NCBI RefSeq assembly: GCF_030817415.1 | Contig: NZ_JAUSZI010000002.1 | Location: 2,170,001-2,234,000 of the forward strand | Direction of reading: 5' to 3' | DNA from: Streptomyces umbrinus | GTDB taxonomy: Bacteria > Actinomycetota > Actinomycetes > Streptomycetales > Streptomycetaceae | DNA length: 64,000 bases | Shown: positions 55,110 to 64,000 of the stretch, one piece after another | Position numbering within the stretch: the stretch's first letter is position 1 | Layout of the letters: every line of letters starts with the position of its first letter | The notes under the pieces: generated by a model | What the model was told of the DNA's origin: nothing | The model's database searches: none | Seen by the model: only the letters and a program-made list of their open reading frames with translations | Translations under genes and position numbers: made by a program

Positions 55110-56295
55110 TCAGGAGGGCTTGCCCGTCCGCAGCGTGAAGCCGACGCCGTCCCGGGCGAGTTCGGCGAGCCAGTCCTCGGACCGCTCAGCCGTCTCCGCC
55201 GCCCGGTTGAGGCCGGGCGGCAAGTCGTCGCCGAGGATCCGCCGCACCCCGAGCGCCAGCGTCCGCGACACGCACCGCGCCATCGCGCTCTCCTCCGCGT
55301 CGCCCTCCAGGTCCAGCAGGTAGCGGCCCGACCAGGTGCGGTCCGAGCCGTCGCGTAAGTCCAGGGACACGGCGAGGACCACGCGGTCGCGGTCGGCGTC
55401 CGTGGTCGGGTAGCGGGCCGCCAACTCCTGGGCGAGGGCGGTGATCCGCTGGTCGTCGCCCTGGCGGAGTTTCTCGAAGACCGGCTGCCAGGCCGTCGAG
55501 CCAACCGTCGAGGCGGAGGGTGCCGCGGATGAAGGTCTGCGGCTTCCAGGCCGGGGGCAGTCCGTACTGCTCGACGAAGGGAAGGCTGTCGCGGTTGGGG
55601 TAGACCTCGAACGGCTCACCGTCCACCACGTGGGGGCGCGTGGCCTCCCAGGGACGCGGCGCGGTGGTCTCGGCGCCGGCCTCGATGTAACGGGCGGGCG
55701 AGCGCAGGGCGTTGAGGACGCCCGCCGGGGCCCAGCTGAAGCGGTACCTGAAGTCGTTCGGGACGGCCGGGATGCCTCCGCAGTACGAGGTGAGGCTCAC
55801 CTCGGCGGTCGTGTCGGCGCCGATCTCCTCGCGGGCCCGGGCGATGAGGCTGTGCGCGAAGAGGTGGTCGATGCCCGGGTCGAGGCCGGACTCGGTGAGG
55901 ACGACGACCCCGGCGGCCGTGGCGGCGGGCACCTGGTCGAGGACCGCCTCCGAGACATAGCTGGAGCAGGCGAAGTGGGCCCCGCGGCTCACACAGGCGG
56001 CGAGCAGGCCCGCGTGTTCGGGCGCCGGGAGCATCGAGACCACCACGTCGCCGGGCGCCAGTTCCGCCGTCAGGGCCGGGAGCGTGTACGCGCGTGGCTC
56101 GGCGCGGCCGGTGAGGCCGCGGGTCTCCAGGCTCCGGGCGGCCCGCTCGTCGGTGCGGTGCCACAGGCGTACGCGGTCGGCCGCGTCGCACAGGGCGGCG
56201 AGTCCGCTGCCGGTGGACAGGCCCGCGCCGATCCAGTGGACGGTGCCGGAGGCGGGGACGGGGACGCCGGCAGGCTGGGCTGTCGTCTCAGGCAT
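55110..56295 (-). pseudogene. Saccharopine dehydrogenase-like (LYS9 type) gene with a frameshift
   Basis: The first 265 residues read MPETTAQPAGVPVPASGTVH, VHWIGAGLSTGSGLAAL, DVVVSMLPAPEHAGLLAACV, VLTESGLDPGIDHLFAHSLI, EVSLTSYCGGIPAVPNDFRY and end at LRLDGWLDG, all typical of the glutamate-forming saccharopine dehydrogenase. Near 55491-55495 the frame changes: the expected continuation AWQPVFEKLRQGDDQRI to the end (GVGFTLRTGKPS) lies one frame over. Removing a single base restores a protein of about 394 residues. So this is either a recent pseudogene, a sequencing error in a GGCC run, or programmed slippage. GGGGAG precedes the ATG; it overlaps the preceding gene by eight bases. Confidence 0.8.
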
Positions 56296-57349
56296 CGCGG
56301 AACTCCCCTTGTGTCAGGTCTAGTTCACGGCATGCTTCGTGGTACCGGTCCAGGTCGCGGCCCCACGCCCCGGCCACCCCGAACTCCAGGAGCTGTGGCG
56401 TCAGTGCCGCCGAGAAGTCCGTGCTCGCCTCCTTGGGCAGCAGGGACGGCAGGTTGTCGATGGCGATGAGGTCGAGGGCGGGCTCCTCGTGCAGGCGCCG
56501 CACGGGGTCGGTCCAGTCCGTGACCGTGTCGTAGACCGGCAGGACGTTGTAGGGGGAGCCGACGTCGCAGGTCACGTCGCAGACCGTGCGCAGTCGGCGG
56601 CCAGGGTCGTCCAGGTCCTTGTCCGTGAGGAAGGGGGTGCTCGGCCCGGTGGTGAGGACGGTGTTCACCATCAACTCGTGGTCCAGCAGGGCCTGTCGGT
56701 CCAGATCGCGGGTCTCGGTGAGGTCCCAGCAGGTGGGGTCGAGCCCCGCCTCGGCGAGCGCGACCCGCGCACCGCGCCCGGAGCGGCCGAGCGCGCCGAT
56801 CACCAGCGAGGCGAACTCGGCTTCGCCGGGGGCCGGTTGGAGTTCGGCGTCCAGTTCCTCCTTGGACGTCGGCCGCAGTGGGGCGCTCAGTCTGCCCCGG
56901 TGGTGCAGTACCGCGAGGGCCGCGCCCACATAGCCCGCCCAGTAGCCGAAGGCGGCGAGCCTGCGGCCGTTGTCGTCCACCAGGTACTCCAGGTCGAACA
57001 GCGCCCCTCCCCCGGCGACGAACCGGCGCAGCAACGCCTCCGCCCCGGGCTGTGCCTTGTACGCGTGCCCGAAGAAGACATGACGGTGCCTCAACTGCTC
57101 CGGCCCGTCCGGGAGTTCCTTGAGGCCTACGATCACCGCGTCCGCCGGGGCGTCGACCCAGGAGCCCGCCTCGACGACTCGGCAGCCCGCCTCCTCGTAC
57201 GCCCCGGTCGGAAAGACGCGCTGCGGGGAGTCCTCGACGGTGAGCGTCACGCCGTCCCGGACGAGCCGCCGGGCATCGGACGGCACGATCGGGGTGCGTC
57301 GCTCGGTCGTGCGGGTCTCGTGGCGCAGCCACAGGTGGAGCTCGGTCAT
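56288..57349 (-). CDS. Saccharopine dehydrogenase (NAD, lysine-forming type)
   Basis: The protein has 353 residues, the length of yeast LYS1. WLRHETRTTERRTPIVPSDA at the start carries the active-site region, then KELPDGPEQLRHRHVFFGHA, HAYKAQPGAEALLRRF, FGYWAGYVGAALAV and LTKD-like FLTDKDLDDPGRRLRTVCDV follow the alanine dehydrogenase/LYS1 fold. It interconverts saccharopine with lysine plus 2-oxoglutarate using NAD. It sits in a tightly coupled operon with the LYS9-type gene downstream (8-base overlap) and an FAD amine oxidase upstream (ATGA overlap). Whether it makes or breaks lysine here is not clear; bacteria make lysine by the diaminopimelate route, so catabolism or secondary metabolism is more likely. 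Confidence 0.87.
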   Translation of the reverse strand: MTELHLWLRHETRTTERRTPIVPSDARRLVRDGVTLTVEDSPQRVFPTGAYEEAGCRVVEAGSWVDAPADAVIVGLKELPDGPEQLRHRHVFFGHAYKAQPGAEALLRRFVAGGGALFDLEYLVDDNGRRLAAFGYWAGYVGAALAVLHHRGRLSAPLRPTSKEELDAELQPAPGEAEFASLVIGALGRSGRGARVALAEAGLDPTCWDLTETRDLDRQALLDHELMVNTVLTTGPSTPFLTDKDLDDPGRRLRTVCDVTCDVGSPYNVLPVYDTVTDWTDPVRRLHEEPALDLIAIDNLPSLLPKEASTDFSAALTPQLLEFGVAGAWGRDLDRYHEACRELDLTQGEFRDA

Positions 57350-58500
57350 ACGCGGTTGACCTCCGGTCTCAGGGCATCGGCGGCGAACCGTTCGGCACGC
57401 AGCGGGGTGATGTCGACGAAGGGATCATGCCCCAGGAAGAGATCGCGGACGACCTCGCCCACGGCGGGTCCCTGGAGGAAGCCGTGCCCTGAGAACCCGG
57501 TCGCGTACAGGAAGCGGGAGACCGAACTCGCCTCGCCGATCAGCGCGTTGTGGTCCGGGGTGATCTCGTACAGGCCGGCCCAGCCGCCCGTCCTGCGCAG
57601 GTCGAGCAGGGCGGGTGCGCGGTGCTCCATGGCCTCGCAGAGGCGGGGGATCCAGCGGTCGTGGGTCTCGGTGGCGAAGCCGGGCCTCTCGTCCGGGTCG
57701 GACATGCCGACCAGGAGGCCCGGACCCTCGGTGTGGAAGTACAGGCTGCTGGTGAAGTCGATGGTCATGGGGAGGTCGGGCGGGAGGTCCGGGACCGGTT
57801 CGGTGACGGCGATCTGGCGGCGCAGCGGCTCCACCGGGAGGTCCACGCCGGCCATCGCGCCGACGGCCCGTGACCAGGCGCCCGCCGCACACACGACGGC
57901 CGACGTGCCGATCCGGCCCAGACCGGTGACGACGGCCGTGATGTCGTCGCCGCGCGTCTCGATGCCGGTGACCTCGCAGTGGCGTACGACCTTGACGCCG
58001 TGTCGACGGGCGGCGGCCGCGTATCCGTGCACCACGGCCTCGGGGGTGCAGTGGCCGTCGTCCGGGGAGAAGGCGGCGGCCAGCAGTCCGTCGGTGCTGA
58101 TCAGCGGCGAGAGGCGGCGCGCCTCGGCCGGGTCCAGCATGCGGCTCGGCACGCCGAGTCCGTTCTGCAGCCGCACCCCGGCCTCGAACGCCTCAACCTC
58201 CTCCGGTGTCGACAGCAGGAAGAGGTAGCCGACACGGTGCAGCCCGATGTCGTGGCCCGTCTCCTCGCCGAAGCGGGCGAACGCCTCCAGGCTGCGCGCG
58301 CCCAGCTGGATGTTGAGCTCGTCGGAAAACTGCGCGCGCACTCCGCCCGCGGCTCGCGAGGTGGACCCGGACGCGAGTTCCCCCCGCTCGACGAGCACCA
58401 CGTCCCGCACTCCGGCCCGCGCCAGGTGGTACGCGATGCTGGTGCCCATCACCCCGCCGCCGATGACGACGACCCCCGCACGTCCGGGAACACCGGTCAT
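57346..58500 (-). CDS. FAD-dependent amine oxidase (sarcosine/pipecolate oxidase-like, DAO family)
   Basis: The protein has 384 residues. The FAD motif is VVVIGGGVMGTSIAYHLARA with the acidic end VLVERGELASGSTSRAAGG, and the C-terminal GLYEITPDHNALIGE and GFSGHGFLQGPAVG segments are those of the sarcosine oxidase beta/glycine oxidase group. It oxidises a secondary or primary amino acid to the imine with release of hydrogen peroxide. Start and stop both overlap neighbours as ATGA, so it is expressed in fixed ratio with them. Next to an ornithine cyclodeaminase-family gene, a cyclic imino acid such as pipecolate is an attractive substrate, which is inference. Confidence 0.9.
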   Translation of the reverse strand: MTGVPGRAGVVVIGGGVMGTSIAYHLARAGVRDVVLVERGELASGSTSRAAGGVRAQFSDELNIQLGARSLEAFARFGEETGHDIGLHRVGYLFLLSTPEEVEAFEAGVRLQNGLGVPSRMLDPAEARRLSPLISTDGLLAAAFSPDDGHCTPEAVVHGYAAAARRHGVKVVRHCEVTGIETRGDDITAVVTGLGRIGTSAVVCAAGAWSRAVGAMAGVDLPVEPLRRQIAVTEPVPDLPPDLPMTIDFTSSLYFHTEGPGLLVGMSDPDERPGFATETHDRWIPRLCEAMEHRAPALLDLRRTGGWAGLYEITPDHNALIGEASSVSRFLYATGFSGHGFLQGPAVGEVVRDLFLGHDPFVDITPLRAERFAADALRPEVNRV

Positions 58501-59474
58501 GAACCCACCCCCTGGTCGCGAGCGGCGTCGATGACCGCCCAGGCCGCGGCGGCGTCCTGGACACCGACGCCGACGCTGTTGTAGTAGACGATGTCCCGCC
58601 CGGTCGTACGTCCCTCGCGGCGGCCGGTGAGTACCTCGCCGAGCGGGATGAGGTCCTGGCGGGTGAGCGTTCCGGCGCGCAGTGCGTCCACGACCGGCCC
58701 GGCGTGTTCGGCCGCGGTCTCGGGGTCGTCCACGACGACGAACTCGGCCCGCCGTACGACCTCGGTGTCGACCTCGCTGCGGCTGGGCTCGAAGGATCCG
58801 ACGCTGACGAGGGTGCAGCCCGGCGCGAGCCACTCGCCCCGGACGACGGGCGTACTGCTGAGCGTGCAGGCGGCGACCATGGGCAGTCCGGCCACGGCTT
58901 CCTCCGCCGTGTCGACGGCCTTGACCGGGATAACGAGTTCGGCCGCGAGGAGGCGTGCCGCCCGTGCTCTGCGGTCCGGGGACGGGCTCCAGATCCGTAC
59001 GGCTCTCAGGTCCCGGACCCGGGCGACGGAGCGTGCGTGCGCGAGGGCCTGGGTGCCGGAGCCGATCAGGCCCAGCTCGGCGCTGTCGGGGGTGGCGAGC
59101 GCGTCGAAGGCCACGGCACTGGCCGCGGCGGTGCGCAGGGTCGTCACCGCGGTGCCGTCCATGACGGCGACGAGTTGCCCGGTGACCGGGTCGAGCGCGT
59201 TGATCACGGCGTGGATCGTCGGCAGCCCGGCGGCCGCGTTGCCCGGGTTGACGCTGCCGATCTTGGCGACGGCCCCGGTGTCCGCGGACAGCCGCGCGAG
59301 GTAGGTGAACACGACACTGTCGTCGAACCCGCTCGGATGCATGATCTTGCCGGGCAGCTCGGCGGTGCCGTCACCGAGCGCGGTGAAGGCGGCCCGCTGG
59401 GACCGGATCGCGGTGTCGGTGTCGAGCAGGGCGGCCACCTGGTCGCGGGAGAGGTGGAGGACGTCGTCGGTCAT
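58497..59474 (-). CDS. Ornithine cyclodeaminase / mu-crystallin family protein
   Basis: The protein has 325 residues, typical length. Conserved parts are LPGKIMHPSG and VVFTYLARLSADTGAVAKIG (substrate pocket with Lys), GTAVTTLRTAAASAVAF, the Rossmann motif LGLIGSGTQALAHARSV and the late DIVYYNSVGVGVQDAAAAW. Family members either cyclise ornithine to proline or lysine to pipecolate with ammonia release, or reduce cyclic imines and form amino-acid linkages in siderophore pathways. As first gene of a four-gene operon with two saccharopine dehydrogenases, lysine cyclodeamination is the favoured guess, not a proven role. Confidence 0.88.
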   Translation of the reverse strand: MTDDVLHLSRDQVAALLDTDTAIRSQRAAFTALGDGTAELPGKIMHPSGFDDSVVFTYLARLSADTGAVAKIGSVNPGNAAAGLPTIHAVINALDPVTGQLVAVMDGTAVTTLRTAAASAVAFDALATPDSAELGLIGSGTQALAHARSVARVRDLRAVRIWSPSPDRRARAARLLAAELVIPVKAVDTAEEAVAGLPMVAACTLSSTPVVRGEWLAPGCTLVSVGSFEPSRSEVDTEVVRRAEFVVVDDPETAAEHAGPVVDALRAGTLTRQDLIPLGEVLTGRREGRTTGRDIVYYNSVGVGVQDAAAAWAVIDAARDQGVGS

Positions 59475-59619: not shown

Positions 59620-60279
59620 TCAGACGCGGTGGCCCACCACGGCGTCCAGGTGCGGCAGGTCGTGGTCCAGGCGCTCCCGCTTGGTGCGCAGATAGGTGAT
59701 GTTGTCCTCGCAGGGCGGGATCAGCAGCGGGACCTGCGCGTCGACCTTGATGCCGTTGCGGAGCAACGCCTCGCGCTTGCGCGGGTTGTTGGACAGCAGT
59801 CTCACGGAACGGACGCCGAGGTCGTGCAGGATGTCCGCGGCCACGCCGTAGTCGCGGGCGTCCACGGGCAGCCCGAGCGCGAGGTTCGCCTCGACGGTGT
59901 CGAGGCCCTCCGACTGGAGCTTCATCGCCTGGAGCTTGGCGAGCAGGCCGATCCCGCGGCCCTCGTGGCCCCGCAGATAGATGAGGATGCCGCGCCCTTC
60001 GGCCACGATCTCCCGCAGTGCGGTGGAGAGTTGGGGGCCGCACTCGCAGTGCCGGGATCCGAACGCGTCACCCGTGAGGCACTCGGAGTGCAGCCGGGTG
60101 AGCATTCCGTCTTTCTGGATGTCACCGTAGACCAGAGCCACTTGTTCGTCTCCGCGGGTACGGTCCAGGTAGCCGACGGCCTGGAAATCGCCGTACACCG
60201 TGGGCAGCGGGGCATTCACGACCCGCTCGACACCTGCGGAGTGGGCTTTCCCGGCGAGTACGCCATCTATTTCTGTCAT
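59620..60279 (-). CDS. ribA: GTP cyclohydrolase II, FAPy-forming type (Tyr to Met variant)
   Basis: The protein has 219 residues, a stand-alone GCH II without a DHBP synthase domain. The zinc cysteines are C67, C78 and C80 in HSECLTGDAFGSRHCECG; catalytic region YLRGHEGRGIGL and the C-terminal LLSNNPRKREALLRNGI are intact. At the position of E. coli Tyr105 (KIRAYALQ) it has Met119 (KLQAMKLQ). From memory, the S. coelicolor homologue SCO6655 with Met120 at this place stops at the formylated pyrimidine (FAPy) and does not release formate. So this copy probably does not serve riboflavin synthesis but starts another pathway. It is divergent, at 39 bases, from a creatininase-family gene. Confidence 0.92.
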   Translation of the reverse strand: MTEIDGVLAGKAHSAGVERVVNAPLPTVYGDFQAVGYLDRTRGDEQVALVYGDIQKDGMLTRLHSECLTGDAFGSRHCECGPQLSTALREIVAEGRGILIYLRGHEGRGIGLLAKLQAMKLQSEGLDTVEANLALGLPVDARDYGVAADILHDLGVRSVRLLSNNPRKREALLRNGIKVDAQVPLLIPPCEDNITYLRTKRERLDHDLPHLDAVVGHRV

Positions 60280-60318
60280 GATTCTGGTTCCTAAGCAGAG
60301 ACGAAAGGTCGCGAGAAC

Positions 60319-61110
60319 ATGGGCAATTCGGGCGGTTCGGAAATACGACTCACGGTGTCAGGACAGTTGCCGACAGACACCACGGAAGACGTACGCGCAC
60401 GAGGTGCCGGTACTGCCCAGCAGGTTGCCGTGCTTCCCGTGGGCAGCTTCGAGCAGCACGGTGCGTATCTTCCGCTGTCGACTGACACGCTCGTCGCGTG
60501 CGCGATAGCCCAAGAGGTCGCTGCCGCATTCCCCGTTCACCTCCTTCCTCCGGTGACGATCTCCTGCTCGCACGAACACGCGGCCTGGCCGGGAACGGTG
60601 AGCATTTCCTCCGTGACGCTCCATGCGGTGGTGCGGGACATTGCCGACTCGCTGCGTCGGTCGGGTGTGGACACCCTCGTCGTGGTCAATGGACATGGCG
60701 GCAATTACGTATTGGGCAATGTCGTGCAGGAATCCACCGCCGCCGGTGCCCGGATGGCTCTTTTCCCGGCCGCGGAGGACTGGGAGACGGCGCGTGAACA
60801 GGCCGGGATACAGACCTCGTTGCTCACCGATATGCACGCGGGGGAAATAGAGACCTCCATTCTGCTGCACAGGCACCCCGAATTGGTAAGGCCGGGTTAC
60901 GAGACCTCCGACTTCGAGGCCGACGACCGCCGGCAACTGCTCACGCTGGGCATGTCGGCCTATACCAAGTCCGGTGTCATCGGGCGCCCTTCGAGGGCGT
61001 CCGCCGAGAAGGGGAAGGAACTCCTCGCCTCGCTGGCCGACTCCTTCGGAGCGTACTTCTCGCTGCTGACATCGGAGACCGGGCTTCCTGCGGTCGTCGA
61101 TCGGCACTGA
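60319..61110 (+). CDS. Creatininase-family amidohydrolase (possible FAPy deformylase)
   Basis: The protein has 263 residues. The metal site of the family is complete: LPVGSFEQHGAYLPLSTDT (Glu, His, Asp), SCSHEHAAWPGTVS, VVNGHGGNYVLGN and LTDMHAGEIETSILL. Members include creatininase, MftE peptidase and the archaeal ArfB enzyme that deformylates the FAPy nucleotide in riboflavin/F420 synthesis. Next to a GCH II expected to leave the formyl group on, deformylation of FAPy is a precise prediction. The first 35 residues precede the domain and a later GTG at codon 13 is an alternative start. Its last 151 bases overlap the gene on the other strand. Confidence 0.87.
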   Translation: MGNSGGSEIRLTVSGQLPTDTTEDVRARGAGTAQQVAVLPVGSFEQHGAYLPLSTDTLVACAIAQEVAAAFPVHLLPPVTISCSHEHAAWPGTVSISSVTLHAVVRDIADSLRRSGVDTLVVVNGHGGNYVLGNVVQESTAAGARMALFPAAEDWETAREQAGIQTSLLTDMHAGEIETSILLHRHPELVRPGYETSDFEADDRRQLLTLGMSAYTKSGVIGRPSRASAEKGKELLASLADSFGAYFSLLTSETGLPAVVDRH

Positions 61111-62399
61111 GTGTCCCCGTTTCCATCCGCGCGGGCCGAGATCCGGGACGCCGGTGACTCCATGTGCGAGTCCGGACCCGGCTCGGCGGCCGCGTTCTCC
61201 TGCGGGCGCCGCAGCCCCGCGTACCAACGCGCCACCAGTACGGCGACACCGGGCAGGCTCGCGGCGAAGCTGAGCACGCCGTAGACCACGGCCACGGTCA
61301 GGCCCTGGGTCGCGCCCAGGCCCGCCGCGCCGAACGCCCAGGCGGTGACGCCTTCCCTGGGTCCCCAGCCGCCGACGTTCAGCGGCAGCCCCATGGCGAT
61401 CAGGGCGAGCAGTGCCAGGGGCACCAGCTCGGCGGCGGAGGCGGACGAGCCGGCCGCCCGGGCCGCGAGCAGGAACATCAGGACGTGTCCCGCGAGCACC
61501 ACGACCGACGAGATCAGGACGCCCGGCCAGCTTCCGCGGGCCAGCAGCGCCCCGCGCGCCTCGGTGAGCGCGGCGCGCACCGCGCGGTAGCGGCGGGACG
61601 CGCGCGGCGCCCGGCCCCTGCTGCGGACCGCGCCCACGGTGACGACCCCGCACAGCGAGACGGCGACCAGCAGCACGGCGAGGTGCCGGGTCTCGGTCAG
61701 TACCGGCGAGGGCTGGGTGAGCAGCACGGTCACGCCGACGGCGGCCAGGACCGCCTGTCCCGCGACCCGTTCGAGGACGACCGCGCGCACTCCGCGGCCG
61801 ACGTCGCCGGCGCTCTGTCCGTGCCGTACCGCGCGGTGCACGTCGCCGAGTACGCCGCCCGGCAGGGCCGCGTTGAGGAACAACGCGCGGTAGTAGTCCG
61901 CGACGGCCGGGCCCAGCGGCAGCCTGAGCTTCATCCCGCGGGCCACCACGCACCAGCGCCAGGCGCTGAACACAGTGGTCAGCAGGCCGATGCCGAGCGC
62001 CGCGAGGAGCGTCGGGCCGTCGATCCTGCGCAGGCCGTCCAGGAAGACCCCGGTGCCGAGCCGCCAGGTGAGCACGGTGAGGATCACGACGCCGGCGATG
62101 GTGCCGAAGTGGGTGCGCAGGACGCGGGAATCGAGGCGCGCCAGGACGGGACCCGCGACGCCGGCCAGCACCTTGCGCGGACCCGCGGTGGGCGTGTCCG
62201 CCGTCGCGTCGGCGCGGGCGGACCCGGTCTCGCCGTCCCCGCCGTTCTCGCCGTTCTCGCCGTTCTCGCCGTTCTCGCCGTCGAGGCGTACTCGTCCGGT
62301 CTCCCGTTCCTCCGCACCGCCGTCACGGACCGCCGACGACAGTTCGTCGTCCAGGGCGGCCAGTGACTGTGCCTCGTCCGCCATCGCCGGCGTGCTCAT
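60960..62399 (-). CDS. Lysylphosphatidylglycerol synthase TM-region / flippase-like membrane protein
   Basis: The protein has 479 residues with about eight helices (GVVILTVLTWRLGTGVFL, LLAALGIGLLTTVFSAW, VLLVAVSLCGVVTVGAV, GVLISSVVVLAGHVLMFLL, VAVVYGVLSFAASLPGVAV). FLNAALPGGVLGDVHRAVRH and VVLERVAGQAVLA are the UPF0104/LPG_synthase_TM signature. Only the integral-membrane half of MprF is present, without the tRNA-dependent transferase. A disordered N-terminus contains (GEN)4 encoded by a 9-bp repeat, and the hydrophilic C-terminus runs antisense into the creatininase gene. Beside a glycosyltransferase and a methyltransferase it may flip or export the product. Confidence 0.85.
   Translation of the reverse strand: MSTPAMADEAQSLAALDDELSSAVRDGGAEERETGRVRLDGENGENGENGENGGDGETGSARADATADTPTAGPRKVLAGVAGPVLARLDSRVLRTHFGTIAGVVILTVLTWRLGTGVFLDGLRRIDGPTLLAALGIGLLTTVFSAWRWCVVARGMKLRLPLGPAVADYYRALFLNAALPGGVLGDVHRAVRHGQSAGDVGRGVRAVVLERVAGQAVLAAVGVTVLLTQPSPVLTETRHLAVLLVAVSLCGVVTVGAVRSRGRAPRASRRYRAVRAALTEARGALLARGSWPGVLISSVVVLAGHVLMFLLAARAAGSSASAAELVPLALLALIAMGLPLNVGGWGPREGVTAWAFGAAGLGATQGLTVAVVYGVLSFAASLPGVAVLVARWYAGLRRPQENAAAEPGPDSHMESPASRISARADGNGDTQCRSTTAGSPVSDVSSEKYAPKESASEARSSFPFSADALEGRPMTPDLV
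62241..62276 (-). repeat. 9-bp tandem repeat encoding ENG units
   Basis: Four perfect copies of GCCGTTCTC (plus-strand sense) encode repeated Glu-Asn-Gly in the hydrophilic N-terminus of the flippase-like protein. Unit changes keep the frame, so only loop length would vary. Confidence 0.9.
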
Positions 62400-63463
62400 C
62401 AGGCTCCCCCTGTCGGGCGGGCCAGGGCGAGCAGGTCACTGTGGTGCACCACCACGCTCAACTGGCCCGCCTCGCAGGCCGCGAGGCGCTCCTTGAGGTA
62501 GGCGTCGGCGCGCTCGGCCAGTGCCGGGCGCTCCTCGACGGCCGCGCCGACCCAGCCGCGCAGCCACTCCGCGGTCAGCGCGGACTCGTCCGGGCCGAGG
62601 CGCCAGGCACTCGGGTGCACCCGGACCGTCGCGCCGTGCCGGGCGAAGGCGTCGCAGGCCGCGTTGATCGCTTCGGGGCCGAGCAGGTCGCCGCGCCGCT
62701 GGTGGGCGTTGAACGCGTCGGCGATCTCCTCGTCCAGCGGGTGGGCCGGGGCGAGTTCGACGCGTCCGACCACGGAGAGCGTCAGGAGCGCGGGGCAGCC
62801 GGCTCCGGCGCAGGCCGCGGCCAGGGCCTCGATCTCGTCCGTGGTGAGGACGTCAAGGAGCGCGGAGGCCGTCACCAGCGAGGCGCCGGCCAGGGCGTCC
62901 GCGGTCAGCCGGGCGACGTCGCCACGCTGTGTCTCCACCGTGACGCGGCTGCCGTCGGCGGCCGACCGGGGCGACCCGACGGCGGCGAAGTGCAGCAGAT
63001 AGGGGTCGCGGTCGTGCAGCACCCAGTGCTGGGGCCCGTCGAGCCGGGGCGCGAGCCAGCGGCCCATGGAGCCGGTGCCGCAGCCCAGGTCGTGGATGAC
63101 GAGTCCGCCACGCCCCGGCAGGTTCGCGAGCCGGATCCGCAGCGGGTCGAGCAGCTCGGCCGCCCGGGCGGCCGCGTCGACGGGCTCGCGCAGTTCCAGC
63201 CATTCGGGGGCGTAGCGGGTCGCGTCGTCGATGGCCTCGCCGCGGGTGCGGTCACCAAGCCGAATCGTTCCTGTGTCCCGCCCCTGGCCCGGAACCACGG
63301 CCTCGGTCTCGGTCGTCGTCATCTCGTCGCGTCCCCGCCCTGCCGTGTGCGTCCCCTCACCACGTCCCAGCGAGGCGGTGCTCGTCTCCTCGTCGAGGCC
63401 GGGCTCGGCCGTCGTCATGCCATGTCCTGGAATCCCGGCCGGCGTCGTGCTCGTACCGCTCAT
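62399..63463 (-). CDS. Class I SAM-dependent methyltransferase
   Basis: The protein has 354 residues. The SAM-binding motif I is VIHDLGCGTGSMGRWLAPRL with the acidic VLHDRDPYLLHF strand and SLVTASALLDVLTTDEI as later motifs. The first 60 residues are Thr/Gly/Glu-rich and low in complexity; an ATG at codon 48 (MTTTETEAV) could be the real start, but the ATGA overlap with the glycosyltransferase stop supports the long form. The stop overlaps the next start as ATGA too, so it is coupled to the flippase-like gene. Substrate unknown, probably an intermediate of this locus. Confidence 0.87.
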   Translation of the reverse strand: MSGTSTTPAGIPGHGMTTAEPGLDEETSTASLGRGEGTHTAGRGRDEMTTTETEAVVPGQGRDTGTIRLGDRTRGEAIDDATRYAPEWLELREPVDAAARAAELLDPLRIRLANLPGRGGLVIHDLGCGTGSMGRWLAPRLDGPQHWVLHDRDPYLLHFAAVGSPRSAADGSRVTVETQRGDVARLTADALAGASLVTASALLDVLTTDEIEALAAACAGAGCPALLTLSVVGRVELAPAHPLDEEIADAFNAHQRRGDLLGPEAINAACDAFARHGATVRVHPSAWRLGPDESALTAEWLRGWVGAAVEERPALAERADAYLKERLAACEAGQLSVVVHHSDLLALARPTGGA

Positions 63464-64000
63464 GCCGCCCCCCTCCTTGCCTCGCTCTTCAGTCGCCCCA
63501 GGACACCCGACAGACTCCGGGCCGTGGCGGCCCAGCCTCCGAGGGACGCCCGGCGGGCGCGCGCGGCGGCCTTGAGGCGACGGCGTACGTCGGCCTCGCC
63601 GAACCAGCCGCGCAGTTCGGCCGCGAGGGCCGCGGGGTTCTCCGGCGGCACGAGGAGCCCGGGCACCCCGCCGTCGGGCGCGCGCCCGACCGCCTCGGGG
63701 AGCCCGCCGACGTCCGTGGCCAGCACGGGGATACCGCGGGCGAGCGCCTCGGTGACGGCCATGCCGTACGTCTCGGCGTACGAGGTGAGGACCATGAGGT
63801 CGGCGGAGGCGTAGCTCGCGTCGAGGGCGGCGCCGGACTGGGGGCCGGCCAGGTGCAGCCGGTCGCCGAGGCCGTGCTGCTCGATCAGCGCCCGTAGCCC
63901 GGCCACGTACTCGGGGTCGTGGTCGAGGCCGCCGACGAGGACGCAGGTCCAGGGCAGGTCGGTGACCGCGGCGAGGGCCTCGACCAGTCGGTGCTGCCCC
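63460..64000 (-). CDS. Glycosyltransferase family 4 (5' end outside window)
   Basis: The last 180 residues are visible. The GT-B C-terminal domain is clear: EALAAVTDLPWTCVLVGGLD, DRLHLAGPQSGAALDASYAS, the donor-binding ExxxxxxxE motif in SYAETYGMAVTEALARGIPV, and LATDVGGLPEAVG. It transfers a sugar from a nucleotide- or lipid-linked donor. It is coupled to the methyltransferase by an ATGA overlap and is part of the minus-strand unit that continues beyond the window edge. Confidence 0.9.
   Translation of the reverse strand, partial: GQHRLVEALAAVTDLPWTCVLVGGLDHDPEYVAGLRALIEQHGLGDRLHLAGPQSGAALDASYASADLMVLTSYAETYGMAVTEALARGIPVLATDVGGLPEAVGRAPDGGVPGLLVPPENPAALAAELRGWFGEADVRRRLKAAARARRASLGGWAATARSLSGVLGRLKSEARRGAA

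Follow-up and report, generated by a model that had tools for sequence, protein, structure and literature searches.

A 64,000-nucleotide stretch of the 12.4 Mb genome of Streptomyces umbrinus (G000:C2:2170001-2234000; hereafter the window) ends within a conserved gene cassette, the remainder of which lies in a continuation stretch (L004) that is identical to the window over 9001 shared bases. This cassette combines RibA2, a member of the GTP cyclohydrolase II (GCH II) family, and a divergently oriented creatininase-family gene with genes for a 6-pyruvoyltetrahydropterin synthase homolog (PTPS-IV), a medium-chain dehydrogenase/reductase (MDR) protein, a GT4 glycosyltransferase, a methyltransferase, a flippase-like membrane protein and a CDP-alcohol phosphotransferase. 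Comparison of the cassettes reveals two forms: one in which a RibA with Met, Leu, His or Gln in place of the canonical Tyr occurs together with the creatininase-family gene, and another in which a Tyr-bearing RibA occurs without it and usually with a single-domain reductase. Based on these sequence comparisons we consider it reasonably probable that RibA2 stops at the formylated pyrimidine intermediate (formamidopyrimidine, FAPy), that the creatininase-family protein deformylates it, and that the cassette thereby supplies a PTPS-IV pathway via 2,5-diamino-6-ribosylamino-4(3H)-pyrimidinone 5'-phosphate (DARP). Every reaction in this scheme is a prediction, the last three steps being the least secure.

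The cluster itself is real, conserved and already partly known; what is new is that the comparison of genomes makes a case for DARP at the branch point and for an enzyme devoted to the deformylation of FAPy. To our knowledge, the reason why Streptomyces coelicolor retains, beside a metal-less PTPS homolog, a GCH II reported to end its reaction at FAPy has been open since 2006-2008. The present comparison reduces this question to a simple assay, which asks whether the creatininase-family protein encoded next to it frees formate from FAPy, and draws attention to a conserved gene set. A sequence-only reading of the window had presented the locus as a candidate undescribed pathway, a view that cannot be maintained: the structure of SCO6650 is solved (PDB 3D7J), and PF00925 and PF01872 are given as neighbours of a 561-sequence PTPS-IV cluster in the accessible part of PMC5445326. 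By order, the genes would correspond to the SCO6650-6655 region of S. coelicolor, so the cluster is not new; by numbering, the GCH II and the PTPS of that species would delimit a run of six genes, in which SCO6651 would be the GT4, SCO6652 the methyltransferase, SCO6653 the flippase and SCO6654 the creatininase. Our locus is another copy of that cluster, to which the comparative partition, the reductase-bearing form and the role of the creatininase are additions. Other parts of the sequence-only reading fared better, its observations being partly confirmed and its interpretation partly supported.

Residue 119 of RibA and the creatininase gene

RibA2 scores above the cut-offs of both models of the GCH II family (PF00925, 217 bits against a cut-off of 23.3; TIGR00505, 220 bits against 205.85) and possesses the zinc cysteines C67, C78 and C80 as well as D140 and R142. 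Alignment with the Escherichia coli enzyme (2bz0) places Met119 at the position of Tyr105, as had been proposed from the sequence, and RibA2 thus lacks the canonical Tyr. According to work from 2006 (Spoonamore), SCO6655 reportedly yields FAPy, with Met as the switch residue. The zinc cysteines are kept in all 100 non-Tyr and all 18 Tyr rows of the alignment, and D140 and R142 in all 118. Besides RibA2, the S. umbrinus genome contains GCH II at two further places, L001 (within a long open frame) and L003, both of which retain Tyr. Among 120 listed homologs of one cassette RibA, position 119 is occupied by His (72), Leu (22), Gln (17), Met (6), Ile (2) or Val (1), and by Tyr in none.

The partition of cassette forms was drawn on loci of at least 9 kb, comprising 49 loci (our own, one plasmid and further genomes) and 79 named Streptomyces loci. 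Within the former set, 24 combine a non-Tyr RibA with the creatininase (Met in 12, Leu in 6, His in 4, Gln in 2), and one more (L133) has a non-Tyr RibA with the creatininase outside the fetched stretch on the same contig, about 13 kb from the PTPS gene. A further 13 have a Tyr RibA with no creatininase found in the fetched stretches, 11 of them carrying the reductase; in the remaining 11 neither RibA nor creatininase was found, and four of these have the reductase. The named Streptomyces loci are uniform, with Met RibA plus creatininase in 74 of 79 and neither gene in five that are truncated by contig ends. In the sample of the same genus, the creatininase is detected (E 1e-50) in 24/24 genomes with the PTPS gene versus 2/20 without it.

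Phylogenetic trees add a second line of evidence. RibA2 and the creatininase are both absent from otherwise retained cassettes in L141 and in L117 plus L126; a tree built from dehydrogenase, PTPS and GT4 places L141 with good support inside the creatininase-bearing rows, and L117 plus L126 beside L119 with weaker support (86/63). Each of these three genomes has a single GCH II place, and none shows a creatininase above 65 bits, versus 252-321 bits in 15 genomes with the creatininase-type cassette.

In light of this co-variation, we propose that RibA2 would open the imidazole ring of GTP and remove pyrophosphate and, in the absence of the Tyr, leave the formyl group on, giving FAPy, whose formyl amide the creatininase-family enzyme would then hydrolyse to DARP. 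Since a Tyr RibA would deliver DARP and formate in one enzyme and a non-Tyr RibA would stop at FAPy, a formyl-removing partner would be needed precisely where the creatininase occurs. Cassettes devoid of both genes could use DARP from the riboflavin pathway. On this reading, DARP rather than FAPy is most likely the metabolite at the branch point. The conversion of GTP via FAPy to the diaminopyrimidine, which had been suggested from the window alone, thereby gains comparative support, in that the creatininase tracks the absence of Tyr and the two genes are jointly missing from two sub-lineages, with each reaction still a prediction.

Several observations weigh against this proposal. The non-Tyr, creatininase-linked RibA rows form one group on the RibA tree (93/74; 44 rows); the non-Tyr RibA thus probably arose once, so that the link between the two genes is backed by a single origin together with the cases of joint absence, and an independent-pairs test on this tree had 1 pair and no power. 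The creatininase-family protein reaches 39.2 bits on the model of the archaeal deformylase ArfB (NF033501), far from the cut-off of 180. Creatininases are also not confined to the cassettes: 13 outside them form a sister clade (89/95) with the same motifs, 55-65% identical to ours (tblastn), around which the fetched stretches contain no GCH II match, and 11 genomes of the class sample have a creatininase at E 1e-50 without a creatininase-type cassette, one of which (G374) has an extra-cassette creatininase alongside a Tyr cassette. The reductase is likewise not specific to the cassette, as it occurs in 52/330 class genomes lacking a strong PTPS-IV match and is absent (E 1e-25) from 5/24 same-genus and 6/39 other PTPS-positive genomes. 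Finally, the expression data from S. coelicolor are not obviously in agreement: in the accessible parts of the two reports, SCO6655, there named GTP cyclohydrolase II, appears in a table of the "most strongly anticorrelated genes" with a value of 0.61 in size (PMC2853524), whereas SCO6652, which counts in favour of the proposal, rises in the second mycelium by log2 values of 0.8, 4.3 and 4.1, or about 17- to 20-fold at 48 and 72 h (PMC3610822). As a separate observation, two members of the extra-cassette clade (L166:9554-10243 and L167:6415-7173) each lie beside an open reading frame (ORF) that by eye resembles an XRE-type regulator.

The creatininase-family protein as a candidate deformylase

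The creatininase-family protein stays below the cut-offs of the curated models for MftE, creatininase and ArfB. The best-scoring is that of the mycofactocin protein MftE (TIGR03964), at 134.7 bits below a cut-off of 172, and no mycofactocin protein was found among the cassette proteins in the family scan; the creatininase model (TIGR04448) gives 101.9 bits where 235 are required. Four residues, E45, H47, D56 and H126, align with those of Pseudomonas putida-type creatininase that we take to be metal ligands. The metal site had been described as complete from the sequence, which holds for these four positions and fails for the fifth, where the Glu that comes next in creatininase is a Gly (in NGHGGN), as it also is in 3lub and 3no4. 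E176 of the motif HAGE is a candidate stand-in for the missing ligand.

Judged by its description, the closest known enzyme is BrbF of Sinorhizobium meliloti (SMc02977): according to the accessible part of PMC9478397, it is a proven creatininase-family FAPy formamidase with a Km of about 152 uM that had been annotated as a creatinine amidohydrolase. BrbF serves riboflavin and has a GTP-opening partner that the same text leaves unknown, whereas the partner here would be the non-Tyr GCH II, in another pathway. The archaeal riboflavin entry by ArfA, ArfB and ArfC shares the proposed order of steps, with FAPy formation, deformylation and reduction before deamination, and GCH II plus creatininase could thus be seen as bacterial parts rebuilding the two-step ArfA-ArfB entry. 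ArfA is not known to be related to GCH II, and by its score on the ArfB model the creatininase-family protein does not qualify as an ArfB, which the sequence-only reading had cited as a FAPy-deformylating relative of creatininase. A link between creatininase and FAPy in Streptomyces, or a product of SCO6650-6655, was not found in the literature consulted, which was mostly open-access and leaves room for such a statement elsewhere in print; the accessible parts of PMC7288161 and PMC13028884 contain nothing on Streptomyces FAPy.

Alternatively, the creatininase could act late, as an amidohydrolase on the product of the cassette or on an unrelated substrate, with the formyl-bearing FAPy itself serving as the building block. 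Such a role would fit the ranking of MftE and creatininase ahead of ArfB among the models and the related clade with no GCH II found nearby. It would also fit the separation of the two genes outside Streptomyces, where 14 fetched loci contain the pair and 13 of these have one gene at either extreme of the cassette. A lack of neighbourhood in other actinomycetes had been named beforehand as refuting the pathway, and taken literally this applies, although the linkage as such holds. A late-acting enzyme would, however, not predict that 13/13 Tyr cassettes show no creatininase in the fetched stretches, nor that RibA2 and the creatininase are missing together in L141 and in L117 plus L126. We therefore regard it as unlikely and retain deformylation of FAPy as the preferred role.

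The PTPS-IV core and the proposed later steps

The match between the PTPS protein and SCO6650 spans all 132 residues (E 1.9e-73). FGPAQ is present in this protein and in at least 95% of 130 distinct sequences, which come almost entirely from the class Actinomycetes; it is given as the PTPS-IV signature in the accessible part of PMC5445326. In an equal share (at least 95%) of these sequences the motif HGH is replaced by HGA, whereby the third zinc ligand becomes Ala; exceptions are HGV in L149 and FGPAR in L142. The motif of PTPS-II and QueD (PTPS-I), in which a Cys precedes HGH (CxxxxxHGH or CxxxHGH), is accordingly lacking, with HGA and no such Cys, and our protein scores 34 bits on the QueD model against a cut-off of 89.25. 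In the same accessible part of PMC5445326, creatininase, GT4, dehydrogenase and flippase are not named as partners of PTPS-IV, and the two RibA forms are not separated.

A reductase may be a further partner of this core. The copy in the S. umbrinus genome (L156) is separated from the third GCH II by about 0.8 kb and a single ORF; its best PDB matches are 5xux and relatives, followed by 6p8c, which is named 2,5-diamino-6-ribosylamino-4(3H)-pyrimidinone 5'-phosphate reductase, and 2azn, while its best NCBIfam model is the archaeal TIGR01508 (133.8 bits against a cut-off of 186.45, with the query cut at 202 aa). In the class sample, the reductase occurs in 52/63 genomes with a strong PTPS-IV match versus the share given above for the others, a bias behind which shared ancestry may partly lie. 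In at least four genomes it is found elsewhere, near an ORF that by eye resembles a RibD-type deaminase, which indicates roles also outside the cassette.

Following DARP, we envisage that its ribose is perhaps reduced by the ArfC/Rib7-like reductase, encoded in the cassette in the Tyr form and elsewhere in most cassette-bearing Streptomyces, and that PTPS-IV, the MDR dehydrogenase and the GT4 would convert DARP, perhaps so reduced, into a glycosylated pyrimidine or pterin. The methyltransferase could then methylate this compound, and the CDP-alcohol phosphotransferase and the flippase-like protein might tie it to the membrane or move it across.

Weaker relatives of the PTPS (32-37%, tblastn) are found in another Actinomycetota class (a single family code, f53) beside a dehydrogenase and a GT4 in nine fetched loci. 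By clustering, a FolB-like ORF occurs near eight of the nine, one member being confirmed as FolB by family search; a Tyr-bearing RibA was noted at one locus (L211). The FolB-like ORF hints at pterin chemistry, short of proof. Near many of these loci an acyltransferase-like ORF is also noted by eye. As a more speculative extension, which we hold to be possible rather than probable, the cassette could represent an old pathway of at least two Actinobacterial classes, leading from GTP to a membrane-associated glycoside of a ribityl-pyrimidine or pterin, with the MDR dehydrogenase, PTPS-IV and GT4 as its core; the PTPS would have kept its full metal motif in one class and lost it in the other, and in Streptomyces and Nocardiopsis-type genera the entry would have been split, with a non-Tyr GCH II passing FAPy to a creatininase-derived deformylase.

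It is also conceivable that the joint action of RibA2, the creatininase and PTPS-IV stands in for GTP cyclohydrolase I (GCH I): FAPy would be deformylated, undergo an Amadori rearrangement and have its ring closed on the PTPS-IV T-fold, to give a pterin resembling dihydroneopterin monophosphate. The T-fold is common to PTPS and GCH I, and the FolB-like ORFs stand near f53 cassettes, where the PTPS retains the full HGH; FolB may, however, be a mere housekeeping gene. Moreover, the Amadori step needs a sugar carbonyl, which the linked ArfC/Rib7-like reductase would eliminate, and the Ala at the third zinc ligand in the great majority of the PTPS sequences speaks against catalysis of this kind, making the replacement quite improbable. 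The pepteridine cluster, which is based on GCH I, differs from the cassette (PMC5384830, accessible part).

A supply of riboflavin or coenzyme F420 is very improbable as the purpose of the cassette. In its favour, the GCH II and reductase enzymes are of the riboflavin type, a tie of PTPS-IV to archaeal F420 is mentioned as unpublished work (White unpublished) in the accessible part of PMC5041015, and CofH (F0 synthase) scores over its cut-off in 29/40 cassette genomes searched, but it does not in the other 11, nine of them rated 100% complete (four with the closer cassette form, five with the divergent one), so that F420 is unlikely as a general purpose. The S. umbrinus genome also has its two further Tyr-type GCH II copies, and neither pathway is known to involve a glycosyltransferase, a phosphotransferase or a flippase.

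Gene order, distribution and surroundings of the cassette

A search with the PTPS protein matched 66 of 393 genomes of the class at E 0.001 and 63 at 1e-20 or better, the latter comprising 24 of the 44 same-genus genomes sampled and 39 others. From these 39 non-Streptomyces genomes 40 loci were fetched, all loci having been picked by their PTPS gene, and among the cassette genes the order dehydrogenase-PTPS-GT4 is kept in 40/40, with other ORFs intervening between dehydrogenase and PTPS in L126 and L142. Among the named Streptomyces loci, 68 span 15 kb or more, and 67 of these follow the order dehydrogenase-PTPS-GT4-methyltransferase-flippase-creatininase-RibA, the remaining one having no methyltransferase match. 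The CDP-alcohol phosphotransferase was found in 55 of these 67 ordered loci and not in 12. A chance neighbourhood is ruled out by this conservation of order (40/40 and 67/68). The cassette can also be plasmid-borne, as in Streptomyces fungicidicus, in which a 927 kb plasmid (L005, NZ_CP023408.1) bears seven of the eight genes as one annotated group and RibA has Met. By name, relatives of the PTPS of L151 belong to Brevibacterium, Kocuria, Nesterenkonia, Mobilicoccus and others, and one genome (G009) carries two PTPS-IV loci, L138 and L125, on separate contigs.

Table 1. Genes of the S. umbrinus cassette and the related cassettes of family code f53. Positions are those of the window unless a stretch is named.
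Feature	Position	Strand	Family match and remarks
RibA2, GTP cyclohydrolase II family; Met119 for Tyr, predicted FAPy end product	59620..60279	-	Above the cut-offs of PF00925 and TIGR00505
Creatininase-family hydrolase; predicted FAPy deformylase	60319..61110	+	PF02633, 219 bits
Flippase-like LPG_synthase_TM membrane protein	60960..62399	-	PF03706, 114 bits; 3' end antisense to the creatininase gene
S-adenosylmethionine-dependent methyltransferase	62399..63463	-	PF13649, 27.5 bits (cut-off 27)
GT4 glycosyltransferase	63460..64587 (L004:8461-9588)	-	PF00534, 108 bits; cut at 64000 by the window end
PTPS-IV	L004:9585-9983	-	PF01242, 77 bits; beyond the window
MDR dehydrogenase	L004:10181-11245	-	PF00107, 27.6 bits (below cut-off 31.8); beyond the window
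CDP-alcohol phosphotransferase	within L004:11156-12151	+	PF01066, 50 bits; beyond the window, far end
f53 related cassettes	L202-L206, L210-L213		Reductase in eight of nine; PTPS HGH intact

The layout of the locus (Table 1) largely agrees with what had been read from the window. The creatininase-family gene starts 39 bases from the start of RibA2 on the opposite strand, as described there, and the pair is divergent in 74/74 named Streptomyces loci showing both. The flippase-like protein, methyltransferase and GT4 do adjoin the creatininase gene, which the flippase gene overlaps tail to tail by 151 bases (60960-61110); such an overlap, of 118-253 bases, recurs in 67 of 68 Streptomyces loci tested, and an antisense coupling of the two genes is possible. 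The unit had been confined to 59620..64000, which does contain these genes, but the GT4 runs past the window end and three more cassette genes follow, including the pterin-synthase and dehydrogenase genes that had been anticipated there and were found in L004 as the PTPS-type and MDR-type members. Of the ATGA couplings described earlier, that between GT4 and methyltransferase stands, whereas methyltransferase and flippase are joined by TGATG (1 base); PTPS and GT4 are joined by GTGA outside the window. The N-terminus of the flippase-like protein contains a run of GEN tripeptides (about 62210-62280, minus strand), ahead of the LPG_synthase_TM match that starts at residue 101.

Adjacent to RibA2 and on the same strand, the region 55186-59474 (minus) codes for two proteins, one of the ornithine cyclodeaminase type (PF02423) and one resembling saccharopine dehydrogenase (PF16653, PF03435). 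As an ornithine cyclodeaminase-type gene is found near the cassette in only 18/74 named Streptomyces loci, it is not counted as a part of it. Between the two proteins lie two ORFs that by eye resemble a flavin oxidoreductase and a second saccharopine dehydrogenase.

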